Positions 1,681 through 56,305 of a DNA stretch of 64,000 bases are shown one piece after another; the stretch's first letter is position 1; each line of letters starts with the position of its first letter. The position numbers and the translations under genes were made by a program. The notes under the pieces were generated by a model that did not search any database, was not told the origin of the DNA, and was given only the letters and a program-made list of their open reading frames with translations. The stretch comes from Caldibacillus debilis DSM 16016 (GTDB lineage: Bacteria; Bacillota; Bacilli; Bacillales; Caldibacillaceae), in contig NZ_KB912880.1 of assembly GCF_000383875.1 (NCBI RefSeq), positions 14,108-78,107 of the forward strand. The letters run 5' to 3'.

Positions 1681-3611
<1,931 letters not shown>

Positions 3612-31911: not shown

Positions 31912-32226
31912 ATGGCTATTGTTCACGCGACCGATCAAACTTTCCGCCAAGAAACGAGCCAAGGTCTGGTATTGACCGATTTCTGGGCGAACTGGTGCGG
32001 GCCGTGCCGGATGATTGCCCCGGTGCTGGAAGAGATCGATGCCGAAATGGGAGATAAAGTGAAAATCGTCAAACTGGACGTGGATCAAAATCAGGAAACC
32101 GCCGTCCAATACGGCGTCATGAGCATTCCCACGTTAATTCTCTTCAAAGACGGCGAAGTGGTCGACAAGGTCGTCGGTTACCGCCCGAAGGAAGAATTGG
32201 TGGAATTCATTAATAAGCATCTGTAA
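31912..32226 (+). CDS. trxA: Thioredoxin
   Basis: 104 residues, the standard size, from the ATG at 31912 with GGGAGG upstream. The redox site WCGPCRM is at about residues 28-34, and the cis-Pro loop is [12 protein letters not shown]. It reduces cytoplasmic disulfides and donates electrons to ribonucleotide reductase and others. It lies between etfA and uvrC, as in B. subtilis. Confidence 0.98.
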
Positions 32227-32230
32227 AATA

Positions 32231-32257
32231 GGCAGTCCCCGAAGGGACTGCTTTTTT
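32231..32257 (+). terminator. Terminator of trxA
   Basis: GCAGTCCC-CGAA-GGGACTGC followed by TTTTTT, 5 bp after the stop. Confidence 0.93.
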
Positions 32258-32604
32258 CCTGCCGTCACCGCCAATCTTCGCATCCGGTTTGGTGGATTTG
32301 CACCGAAGGACCGTTTTTCCGGTTTTCCCTTGAGCCCGCGGCCGGTGAAAAGGAAAAAAGGATGCCCCATCCCTGCTTCCGCCAAGGCGATGGGGAGGGA
32401 CGGCTTCCCTGGGATAGGCGTTTCTTCAGAAACGGCCATAAGGCGTGCCTTGGGCAATTGTGGGAAAAGTCCCTTCCCCGTATGGATACTTACCCTTTCG
32501 CCGCATCATGATATTCACTGCACTGCGGCAAACGTCTTCCGATTCAGCCCCCTTTTGCCTACGGCCCTCCTTATCTATTTTTTTTAGAAATTGTAAAGGC
32601 ATTG
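32258..32604. other. Intergenic region before repeat array A
   Basis: About 350 bp; no gene or clear signal seen. GC-rich at first, AT-rich towards the array. Confidence 0.45.
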
Positions 32605-33117
32605 ATGTCAGACAAACGGCAGCGGATGTTGGACACAGGGAACGATGATGGACATTTTTTGTCCGATGATGGACATTTTTTCCCGGATGATGGACATTTT
32701 TTCGTTCATGTTGGACAAATTTTTTTCCATGTTGGACAATAATTTTCAAATGATGAACAAATCGTTGAAAATGTCGGACAGTCCCATGCGGTGTTGGACG
32801 TTTTTTTTCAGATGTTGAACGATCCGGTTGAAATGTTGGACGATCCGTCCCGAAAGGCGAAAGGAATGTTGAACGTTTTTCCCAAGATTTTGGACAAAAA
32901 GGATCTTTGCTTCAACGTTTGGCAAAAAATGTTGGACATTGTGTCTGGGATGTTGAACCATCCGGGGACGAAGAAAATGAAAATGTTGGACATTCCGGTA
33001 AGGGAATCCATAAATGTCGAATATTTCTTCTCTATGTTGAACAATAAACCTCCCATGTTGGACACATGACCATCCGAGTTGGACAATAAACCTTCCATGA
33101 TGATCCATGACCATCCA
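32605..33117 (+). repeat. Repeat array A: 21 cores resembling ATGTTGGAC, mostly 21-bp period
   Basis: Core starts at 32605, 32626, 32645, 32666, 32687, 32708, 32729, 32750, 32771, 32791, 32812, 32833, 32866, 32887, 32929, 32950, 32983, 33034, 33055, 33076 and 33097. Steps are 21 in most cases, otherwise 19, 20, 33, 42 or 51. Cores vary around A-T-G-[AT]-T-G-[GA]-A-C; the rest of each unit is often T-rich. Read on the plus strand the cores give M-[LM]-[DN] heptads in blocks, but the 19 and 20 steps break the frame. On the minus strand they give VQH/VHH repeats. It is intergenic between trxA and uvrC and is related to array B at 55466-55957. No known family recognised. Confidence 0.9.
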
Positions 33118-33337
33118 ACCGGAAATGCCGGGTCCCTGGCGCGCGCCTTGGCCCTCGTACATACCGGGAAAAGGGGGCTGGACCATAGACCATATTTTTT
33201 TATGCACAGGATTTTGTCTTTTCTGGCTCCTCCAACTGTGCATGTTAGCTTTTCCGGAAAATTTTTCTGCGAAACGGTAAAAATATTGGCTGGAATTAAT
33301 GCGCGATATTTTGACCGATGAGAGCTCCCTAAAGGCA

Positions 33338-33437
33338 TGCATCCGTTTGCATTGTCGGATGGGATTAAAAAATGCCCCCACTTACCTGACTCAAACTTGT
33401 ATCCGTTTACATTTCCGGCACGGGGTTAAAAAAATGC
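33338..33437 (+). repeat. Two degenerate repeat units with 60-bp period upstream of uvrC
   Basis: TGCATCCGTTTGCATT at 33338 and TGTATCCGTTTACATT at 33398. Each is followed by GGGRTTAAAAAATGCC-like sequence. Between the array and uvrC I see no gene. The repeats may be regulatory or the trace of a small duplication. Confidence 0.75.
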
Positions 33438-33557
33438 CACATACGCTTGACCGAATCTCGCTTCTTTCCGGGATGACGATTCGGCAAGCCCGATGGTAAA
33501 ATAATAGAAGTTCAAAGGGTGAAAAGCATAAAAGCTGCCATTTCGGAGTTGAAAAAA

Positions 33558-35336
33558 ATGGATGAAAGAAAGAGATTGCAGGAAAAATTGGCCCTCCTTC
33601 CCGATCTGCCCGGCTGCTATCTGATGAAGGACGAGCATGACCAGGTCATCTATGTCGGCAAGGCGAAGGTGCTCAAGAACCGGGTGCGTTCCTATTTTGT
33701 CGGGAGCCATGACGGGAAGACCCAGGCCCTCGTCAACGAGATCCGCGATTTTGAATACATCATCACCTCATCCGATATAGAGGCGTTAATTTTGGAAATG
33801 AATTTGATCAAAAAATACAAACCGAAATATAACGCCATGCTGAAGGATGACAAAAGCTATCCCTTCATCAAATTGACGGCGGAGCGCCATCCCCGCCTGA
33901 TCATTACGAGAAAAGTCAAGCGGGATAAAGGGAAGTATTTCGGGCCGTACCCGAACGTGCGCGCGGCGAAGGATACGAAACGGCTGCTCGACCGGCTGTA
34001 TCCGCTGCGCAAATGCCAAACCCTTCCCGACCGGCCCTGCCTTTATTACCATATCGGCCAATGCCTGGCCCCCTGCATCCATGACGTCCCTGAAGAAACC
34101 TACAAGAAAATGACCGACGAAATCAGCAAATTTTTAAACGGCGGCCATGAAGAAGTAAAAAAACAACTGACGGAAAAAATGCACGAAGCGGCCGAGGCGC
34201 TGGATTTTGAAAGGGCGAAGGAATACCGGGACAAAATCCGCCATATCGAAGTGACGATGGAACAGCAAAAGGTGGCCTTGAACGATTATATCGACCGGGA
34301 TGTGTTCGGATACGCCGTCGATAAGGGCTGGATGTGCGTGCAGGTGTTTTTCATCCGCCAAGGAAAGCTGATCGAGCGGGACGTTTCCATCTTCCCGGTC
34401 TATAATGAGCCGAAGGAAGAAATCTTAACCTTCCTCGGGCAATTTTATGAAAAGGAAAACCATTTTAAACCGAAGGAAATCCTTTTGCCTGCGGAAGTGG
34501 ATGAACAATTGGCCGGGGCCCTGTTAAACGTCCCCGTCATCAAACCGAGGCGGGGGAAGAAGAAGGAACTGGTGCAATTGGCCGTGAAAAATGCCGGCCA
34601 GGCCCTGAAGGAAAAGCTGCTGCTGATGGAAAGGGACGAGGCGAGGACGACCCGCGCGGCGGAAAATCTGGGAAAAATCTTGGGGATCGGTTACCCGCGG
34701 CGCATCGAAGCCTTCGACAATTCGAACATTCAAGGGGTCCATCCCGTATCGGCCATGGTCGTCTTTACCGACGGCAAGCCCGACAAAAAGGAATATCGCA
34801 AGTACAGGGTGAAGACCGTCCAAGGACCGGACGATTTCGAGACGATGCGGGAAATTGCCCGCCGCCGGTACCTGCGGGTGTTAAGAGAAAACCTGCCGCT
34901 GCCCGATCTGATCATCGTCGACGGGGGGAAGGGACAAATCGAAGCGGTGAAGGACGTGTTGCAAAATGAATTCGACCTGGATATCCCCGTCGCCGGGCTG
35001 GCGAAGGATGACCGGCACCAGACCGCCCGTTTGCTGTTCGGCGATCCTTTGGCCGTCGTTCCGCTGGAAAAAAACAGCGAGGAATTTTATTTGCTGCAAC
35101 GCATCCAGGAGGAAGTCCACCGTTTCGCCGTCGCCTTCCACCGGCAGGTCCGGTCGAAATCGATGATCCATTCCGTGCTGGATGAAGTCCCGGGGATCGG
35201 TGAAAAAAGAAAGAAGCTGCTGTTGAAGCATTTCGGATCGGTGAAAAAAATGAAGGAGGCCTCCCTGGAAGATTTCCTGCGCATCGGTCTGCCGAAAAAT
35301 GTTTGCGAGGCGCTGGTCGAAAAATTGAAGGAGTAA
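33558..35336 (+). CDS. uvrC: Excinuclease ABC subunit C
   Basis: 592 residues from the ATG at 33558, nine bases after CGGAG; a GTG 13 codons upstream is less likely. The N-terminal GIY-YIG nuclease is [31 protein letters not shown]. The UvrB-binding UVR motif is [15 protein letters not shown] near 215. The RNase H-like 5' nuclease contains [11 protein letters not shown] and [11 protein letters not shown], and a helix-hairpin-helix tail follows ([16 protein letters not shown]). It makes both incisions in nucleotide excision repair. Length normal (about 590-600). Confidence 0.97.
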
Positions 35337-35547: not shown

Positions 35548-35732
35548 AGGGTGCAGATAGAGGTGCGGGTCTTCAAGAGTAGAGGCTGGAGGAGAACGGG
35601 CTCCGATGAAGGCTTTGAAAGGGGAGAACCGCCGAAGGACGTACGGGCCCTTTCCCGGCGTGCCTGGTCCTGTGGCCGAACAGGTGCAGGACTGTCAAGA
35701 GGAATTCTTGGAGCGCTATCTCACCTGTGTTG
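35548..35732 (+). ncRNA. Lysine riboswitch (L box)
   Basis: Conserved blocks in order: GATAGAGGTGCGG and CAAGAGTAGAGG (35556-35587), AAAGGGGAGAACCGCCGAAGG (about 35618-35638), GGTGCAGGACTGTCA (about 35684-35698) and CTTGGAGCGCTATCTCACCTG closing the five-way junction. A terminator follows at 35759. Lysine binding should stabilise the terminator and reduce lysC transcription. Confidence 0.95.
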
Positions 35733-55181: not shown

Positions 55182-55465
55182 ATCATTTGCACCGCTGCCT
55201 AGAATTTCCACGAACTTTTTTACAGCTGCCGTTTTTTGCTAGCCGTCAAGGAAAATTCCGCGAACCCATTTGAGCGGGCGGCGCCGTTTTAAAGGCGCGA
55301 GAAGGAAGGAGGCGGAGAGGAAGTATGGGGCGGTGCGGCGCCAACGCCCGCTTTATGCGGCTGGCTGTGCGAACGATCCTCTTCCTTCGGCGATGGAATG
55401 TGCGGCATGTTTCCTAGGCGGTTTTGTGGCGGAAAGACCGCCTCCATTCCGTCGTGATGGAAAAA
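55182..55465. other. Intergenic region before repeat array B
   Basis: About 285 bp, no gene or convincing terminator seen. Confidence 0.45.
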
Positions 55466-55957
55466 ATGTCCGTCATAAAGTTTTTGATTTTAGACAAACC
55501 GCCTTGGATATCGGACATTGGGAGCGATGATGGACATTTTTCAAGCGATGATGGACATTTTTCAAGCGATGATGGACGTTTTTTCCGAGATGATGGTTAT
55601 TTTTTCTTCCATGTTGGACAAATTTTTTTCCATATAGAACATAAATGTGAAAATGATGAACAAATCGTTGAAAATGTTGGACAGTCCCATGGGATGATGA
55701 ATGATTTTGAACATTCCGGTCGAGATGTCGGATCAACCGCCGGGAAAGTGAAAACCAATGTTGGTCGTTTTACCGGAAATATGGGACATCCTAATCTTTT
55801 ATTGAACGTTTTGCAAAAAATGTTGGACATCTTCCCTTGGATATTGAACCGACCGCACCCGATGAGAAAAGGCATGTTGGACATTCCGGTCCGGAGAAAT
55901 GGAATGAAGCATTCCTTCGCAATGTTAAACAATAAAGCCGTCCTTATTGGCCGCTGA
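55466..55957 (+). repeat. Repeat array B: 19 cores resembling ATGTTGGAC, related to array A
   Basis: Core starts at 55466, 55487, 55508, 55527, 55548, 55569, 55590, 55611, 55632, 55653, 55674, 55694, 55725, 55758, 55781, 55820, 55841, 55874 and 55922. Steps are mostly 21, with 19, 20, 31, 33, 23, 39 and 48. The order of odd steps (19, then 20, then 33) repeats array A. Longer matches to A include CATGTTGGACAAATTTTTTT (55610) and AAATGATGAACAAATCGTTG (55651). A plus-strand frame (MLD heptads) ends at TGA 55957. It sits between ysnB and tRNA-Arg. Confidence 0.9.
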
Positions 55958-56155
55958 AGATGTGTATTGAATCTCCCAAAAGGGTCATGCCATGCCGCGA
56001 GGAAACGATGAAACCGAATGAAAAGGATGCCCTTTTAAACCTGTTCCCGCATTAACGGTAATTCCGCCGGATTCCGTCAAAAATGTGTTGACTGCCCCGC
56101 CGCTGACGATCCCGAAGAATGTTTACTTTTTAACGAGGGAAGGGTTAAAATAATA

Positions 56156-56231: not shown

Positions 56232-56305
56232 GTCCCAGTAGCTCAGCTGGATAGAGCAGCGGCCTTCTAAGCCGTCGGTCGGGAGTTCGAATCTCTCCTG
56301 GGACG
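56232..56305 (+). tRNA. tRNA-Arg (anticodon TCT)
   Basis: Cloverleaf of 74 nt: acceptor GTCCCAG/CTGGGAC, D arm with AGCTCAGCTGGATAGAGC, anticodon stem CGGC/GCCG with loop CTTCTAA (anticodon TCT), and T loop GTTCGAATC. It reads AGA/AGG codons. CCA is not encoded. Confidence 0.97.

Follow-up and report, generated by a model that had tools for sequence, protein, structure and literature searches.

A dispersed family of non-coding arrays with largely fixed core spacing in Caldibacillus debilis, carried in two copies by ISLre2-type ends

The window analysed here is a stretch of 64,000 nucleotides of the Caldibacillus debilis DSM 16016 genome. Between trxA (31912-32226) and uvrC (33519-35336) lies array A (32605-33117, + strand), in which ATGWTGRAC cores follow each other in steps of mostly 21 bp. 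On the + strand of 32605-33117, 19 cores are found at up to one mismatch and 22 at up to two, so the 21 cores of the preliminary description are a fair, threshold-dependent count. It had also stated that most steps are exactly 21 bp, which holds for 11 of 18 steps at one mismatch and 14 of 21 at two; the remaining steps measure 19, 20, 31, 33, 42, and 51 bp. The period itself is real. Shuffled versions of the stretch (n = 1000) contain at most 3 ATGWTGRAC matches (mean 0.285, one mismatch), and the self-match of array A peaks at lag 21 with 0.476 (lags 5-69 compared), against values of up to 0.323 at lags 20-22 in 1000 shuffles. Both strands of the window together hold 25 occurrences of ATGTTGGACA at up to one mismatch versus 2.73 expected. 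Tandem Repeats Finder reports period 21 over parts of array A and at another site (55513-55604). A second copy of the family, array B, is located at about 55464-55976 on the + strand, where 13 cores at up to one mismatch precede a tRNA gene at 56232. In 32227-33518, a scan returned 4 promoter-like sites against 1.6 expected, two of them core-to-core matches, and 3 terminator-like sites, also against 1.6 expected. Two ordinary RNA elements stand elsewhere in the window: a leader of ribosomal protein L20 (4237-4360) and, directly 5' of an aspartate kinase gene, a lysine riboswitch (35550-35726).

Array A is accompanied by pieces of an insertion sequence of the ISLre2 type, all on the + strand. 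A weak leader remnant (32496-32523, nhmmer E 0.0048) corresponds to the leader seen at three other loci of the family (L002, L004, and L005). No left terminal repeat was found in the window. A tail runs on from the array (32993-33266) and is common with L003 and partly with L002, L004, L005, L006, L008, L016, and L055. The match of L003 to array A and this tail reaches 83.7% over 627 columns. A first right-end module (33299-33395, nhmmer E 1.4e-9) ends in a degenerate terminal repeat (...CTGACTCAAA), and a second (33395-33455, nhmmer E 4e-14) follows it in tandem.

When the own genome (40 contigs, 3.06 Mb in total) is searched by blastn, at least 38 array loci emerge, whose identities range between 68% and 100%. 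Of the 54 blastn rows, 15 were discarded as weak (E of 1e-8 or worse) and one as a repeated hit at L014, which leaves 38 loci. This count is a lower bound, and more loci may exist, because 40 of the 64 first-look candidates were scored. According to rough ORF calls that tolerate edge overlaps of up to 60 nt, 32 of the 38 arrays have no overlying ORF. The gene upstream of the array is antisense in 23 of the 35 called, which is no firm bias. The preliminary description had offered three readings of array A, namely a phased protein-binding array, a decayed gene for a heptad-repeat protein, and a dispersed non-coding element. The last of these is supported by the number of loci and the lack of ORFs over 32 of them, and the genome-wide search for the unit that had been proposed has returned at least 38 copies that are mostly intergenic and follow a common step pattern.

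What stays constant in the family is an array of ~390 nt, in which cores of 10 bp (ATGWTGRACA) are set at a fixed, near-helical spacing. Exact cores within each hit are all on the same strand. When the copies are aligned by their cores, the common step pattern is 21, 19, six times 21, 20, 21, 21, 33, 21, 42 or 41, 21, and 33 bp, with a weak core inside the 42 or 41 step. L001 and L002 extend this pattern by 51 and 21 bp, and individual copies deviate from it locally or are truncated. Repeat number is fixed between copies; the exceptions are the truncated ones and L028 and L052, which carry a 48-bp tandem extension. In L028 this extension follows the array (about q 435-646) and comprises 4.5 copies, each unit containing two degenerate cores by eye; L052 has 2.2 copies. 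L014 and L017 are 91.6% alike and L028 and L046 are 89.6% alike, and in both pairs the strong match ends near both array edges, around q 33-51 and q 403-408 (q coordinates run one base high; window coordinates are corrected). Beyond the arrays, nothing was found in common between L014 and L017, and L028 and L046 have only diverged pieces in common (72-73%), which belong to the region that forms the 48-bp tandem repeat in L028 and L052.

Among the genomes searched, the family is seen in this genome only. No array match was obtained by blastn in 40 relatives, for most of which 15 first-look candidates were scored, or in plasmid and phage collections. The own genome contains 113 exact core pairs at 21 bp, and among 396 other genomes of the order that were scanned, 9 have any at all: eight of these have 1 each and G273 has 8. 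Seven core pairs in G273 are ~114 bp apart (C1 4792593-4793308), and G105 matched the control pattern only. A search by title of the open-access literature did not find the array family in print among the matches listed.

A core-pattern scan of the wider genome collection gave 38 stretches, of which 35 were inspected for reading frames; in L065, L069, and L088, as in six viral stretches, the cores were counted. A frame of at least 150 codons lies over the first match in 14 of 27 stretches and is absent from 13, and a further 8 stretches sit within frames of 119-832 codons. The 13 without a frame of this length comprise nine short arrays from MAGs of Bacteroidales/Bacteroidetes, a cyanobacterial stretch (L081), an IS21 in an Elusimicrobia genome (L084), and two Ruminococcus stretches (L061 and L075), whose frames have 113-126 codons. 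The nine short arrays consist of ATGATGGACAT units at 21 bp and come from Bacteroidales UBA5515 (L057, L066, L068, L073, L074, L077, and L089), UBA4866 (L090), and CTSoil_023 (L093). In several of them, copies of GTCCATCAT stand inverted on the left side. One such unit (ATGATGGACATAAATGA, then ATGATGGAC again) matches L028, L046, and L052 of the own genome across phyla; the likeness may be chance or convergence. No IS21 match was found in G041, G042, and G043. The cyanobacterial MAG carries a TTTGTATGTTGGACAATCAAA-like 21-bp array at L081 3200-3400.

Both the cores and their spacing are conserved beyond their surroundings. In the alignment of all 38 copies, the information content is 1.33 bits for core columns and 0.88 for spacer columns. 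Conservation repeats at lag 21 (0.47) and is higher at lags 1 and 2 only. Twelve disjoint pairs show differences at 263 of 1932 core positions and at 576 of 2652 spacer positions (p = 1.6e-12). With a rate ratio of 0.63, the constraint on cores is mild; it is slight in L004/L005 and L022/L023 and absent in L006/L007 (22/162 core, 29/224 spacer). With regard to length, the array shows 0 indels with 158 substitutions and the adjoining element sequence 11 indels with 149 (p = 8e-4) in a pooled test of 4 of 10 aligned pairs, the four having members in common. The array is without indel in 9 of the 10 aligned pairs, and L001/L008 has three. Compared with the consensus, all 38 copies together carry 79 gap events and 3463 substitutions, with 0 to 6 gap events per copy. 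L024, L051, and L052 have 0 gap events with 99-137 substitutions, and older copies carry gap events, up to 6. Although copies depart from the consensus at 38 to 150 of ~390 places, their spacing is mostly preserved, a sign of selection acting on geometry.

Further features of the cores bear on protein binding. The core is nearly palindromic (TGTTGAACA, TGTCGGACA). The combination of C with A beside the core centre is rarer than expected in a dyad-like manner (17 vs 37, p = 2e-4; the instances are related), but the four outer position pairs of the core show no dyad-like covariation. The phase coherence of the cores at 10.5 bp is high (vector strength 0.89), largely because the steps are 21 bp. 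The five steps of other lengths approach whole numbers of helical turns more closely than do random steps between 12 and 60 bp (p = 0.039, against a null of our own choosing). A phased binding array, as in the first reading of the preliminary description, is plausible but unproven in view of the conserved spacing, the more strongly conserved cores, and the helical phase. The fixed spacing suggests a phased protein-binding role, in which a putative DNA-binding protein may lie along the arrays.

A carrier can be named for a small part of the family. L002, L004, and L005 have an additional 217-283 nt in common upstream of the array. L004 and L005 are flanked by inverted ends, TGAGTAAAATATTT(G/A)TGGGCA and TGAGTCAAGCGTATGTGGGCA, of the ISLre2 (UPF0236) type. 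Target duplications accompany these ends, with 9/9 bp in L005 (ATTTTCAAA on both sides) and 8/9 bp in L004 (GGGGCCGGC and GGGGTCGGC). ISLre2 elements generate 9-bp direct repeats (PMC8024623). The tail frame of L005 matches UPF0236 (E 2.6e-7), and the start of its leader is somewhat transposase-like (9/21 identical, E 0.001 in a one-sequence comparison). A relic of ISLre2 without exact cores, L120, has ends of the L004/L005 type and a 9/9 duplication (CCTGCCAAA on both sides). Inside these ends and the 9-bp duplication, among the ISLre2 relic pieces, sits a Vga-family frame of the ABC-F ribosomal-protection type (L120 3119-4870, - strand; NF000170, 750 bits, cut-off 725). The genome has 11 matches to PF06782, none of which singly covers the whole model, and no whole transposase was seen inside any array copy. 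Acting in trans, an ISLre2 transposase appears to have mobilised the young copies L004 and L005 as small, defective MITE-like transposons that took the array along as cargo.

In a tree of 31 of the 38 copies, from which 7 short or broken copies were left out, L001-L007 form a clade (support 0.98), and each member has or adjoins some ISLre2-type leader or end piece. In L001, L002, L003, L006, and L007, the ends are one-sided, degenerate, or merely adjoining, and the array of L003 lies outside a neighbouring ISLre2 copy. Around 31 of the 38 copies, no ISLre2-type ends, leader, or terminal repeats were found. Since ISLre2-type pieces were found only around L001-L007 and the array of L003 lies outside, ISLre2 cannot explain the whole family. 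Different carriers or conversion between arrays could account for the other 31 copies. What is observed, then, is a dispersed family with no conserved frame, a largely fixed geometry, and an ISLre2-type carrier in two copies.

A period of 21 bp is also seven codons, and the arrays could in principle represent a decayed or living gene for a protein with M-L-D once per heptad, possibly a transposase N-terminus that has expanded. The outer-core frame is stop-free in 3 of 38 copies (L004, L005, and L055), and in L005 the array follows the transposase-start-like stretch mentioned above. However, the recurring steps of 19 and 20 bp shift the frame by -2 and -1. In ten close pairs (L001 being in two), differences by codon position are 0.160, 0.165, and 0.154, with 0.190, 0.185, and 0.188 for spacers alone, so there is no third-position bias. 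Summed over the 38 copies, stops number 112, 160, and 278 in the forward frames and 121, 83, and 91 in the reverse ones. The main variable bases of the core (T/A at the fourth position, G/A at the seventh) also alter the encoded residue when the core is read in its own frame. In Pfam, the four ORFs of array A match no family; an annotated protein family matching the array had been named as an argument against a new element. The 19 and 20 steps break the frame, divergence is equal over the three codon positions, and the family as a whole keeps no frame open. The heptad-gene reading therefore fails, and we regard it as scarcely credible.

A transcript of the + strand, structured or repetitive, that serves for example as a sponge for an RNA-binding protein is a different possibility. 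The + strand RNA of array A folds unusually well (z -3.5 and -4.9 in two runs), whereas the - strand does not (z -0.7 and -0.1). An alignment fold of L001-L007 has 124 pairs, 11 with double changes and 57/868 cells broken (z -7.4), and one of 12 copies of our own choosing has 55 pairs, of which 10 are doubly changed (z -5.2); these z values are inflated because column shuffles destroy the periodicity. Against such a transcript, z falls below -2 in only 12 of 38 + strands (and in 5 of 38 - strands), no consensus structure emerges for all 38 copies, and no Rfam family is found at the array at the gathering threshold. A conserved RNA fold was rejected on the lack of a fold common to the 38 copies and on the small number of strands with z below -2. 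Pairing can arise from a near-palindromic core, and the fold of the array is likely a by-product of such cores. An RNA function is accordingly very unlikely in our estimation.

The explanation that we favour, at a probability of roughly 0.55, is that the family comprises at least 38 dispersed, mostly intergenic non-coding elements, two of them moved by ISLre2, in which the array is kept by a putative multimeric binding protein. The ISLre2-type carrier would move as a MITE, with the transposase supplied in trans. A multimeric DNA-binding protein, either a transposase or a host factor, would occupy several cores on one helix face. The array would be retained in the lineages that spread because this putative protein reads the cores. 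That last step is the less sure one, and we suggest only tentatively that occupation of the cores by such a protein is what keeps the array.

The main competitor is passive cargo: an old minisatellite-like stretch inside defective transposons, or copied by recombination, that has no binding role. The apparent conservation of spacing would then stem from recent copies or from homogenisation by gene conversion. The mild core constraint, which is missing in L006/L007, and the gap events of older copies agree with this, as do the close pairs that are alike in the array and hardly in the flanks, a pattern that conversion between arrays would give. BrickBuilt, a repeat-bearing MITE discussed below, provides a precedent. 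Yet the sequence outside the array in the same pairs has indels and the array has none; L024, L051, and L052 have accumulated 99-137 substitutions yet no gap event, and the irregular steps are fixed, unlike those of a minisatellite. Passive cargo therefore deserves weight but seems unlikely on balance. More speculatively, the arrays may be genome-wide phased platforms (~1 per 80 kb) for a putative oligomeric DNA-binding protein, with selection holding core and spacing, any element spreading them, and ISLre2 being the latest carrier. The protein would perhaps be a host-captured transposase or a chromosome-organising factor. We hold this broader proposal to be improbable, though somewhat less so than an RNA function.

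MITEs in bacteria tend to be short, with little between the two ends. The present family carries ~20 sites with spacing largely kept. If the binding protein exists, the array should allow it to be fished out, and the protein would show how a defective transposon stays mobile or how a host recruited one.

Several known systems can be compared with the arrays. A CRISPR array was rejected, as the 11-12-bp spacers are homologous between copies. The terminal repeats of IS21 have conserved blocks about one AT-rich turn apart that are contacted by two HTH domains of IstA, with two repeats in inverted orientation at each end (PMC10122671). The block-and-gap geometry does occur at transposase ends, but the arrays here have ~20 cores in one orientation. 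An IS21-type end array was rejected because the exact cores in each hit are on one strand without inverted groups. In the Elusimicrobia stretch (L084 159-212), three ATGATGGACA copies, 23 (by eye) and 21 bp apart, lie upstream of an IS21-family istA, on a contig that stops short of the element's far end. The window itself contains the IS21 genes istA and istB (1681-3611, - strand), with AAAATTCCCC-type repeats ~20-24 bp apart at both ends by eye. NF033546 has 7 matches in the genome, one above the cut-off, and the ends of that IS21 carry a different repeat by eye. The IS21 of the own genome was rejected as the source of the arrays on its AAAATTCCCC-type end repeats (by eye), as was a decayed IS21 at L102.

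The ISLre2 family has a UPF0236 transposase and is exemplified by ISGka4 of Geobacillus kaustophilus (PMC8024623). The L001-L007 clade resembles it in its ends, in a C-terminal part of the transposase, and in direct repeats of 9 bp. The array copies differ from ISLre2 in that none was seen to contain a whole transposase; the relic L120 has no exact core, and no such ends were found at 31 of the 38 arrays.

The closest known kind that we found is BrickBuilt, a MITE of Porphyromonas gingivalis with 19 intergenic, non-coding copies in one strain (PMC4596501). BrickBuilt has internal 23-nt tandem units (about two helical turns) in 1 to 22.8 copies, and a leader and tail with IS5-type terminal inverted repeats; 8 of the 19 copies are without leader, tail, or both, and the element is described from P. 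gingivalis and P. gulae only (PMC4596501). A repeat of 23 nt in up to 22.8 copies makes the earlier statement that nothing known has this form too strong. The two families are alike in their dispersed intergenic copies (38 loci here), their tandem units of about two turns, and their leader and tail. They differ in that the unit number of BrickBuilt varies whereas the arrays here keep a fixed step pattern, and in that BrickBuilt has IS5-type ends whereas L004 and L005 have ISLre2-type ends with 9-bp duplications.
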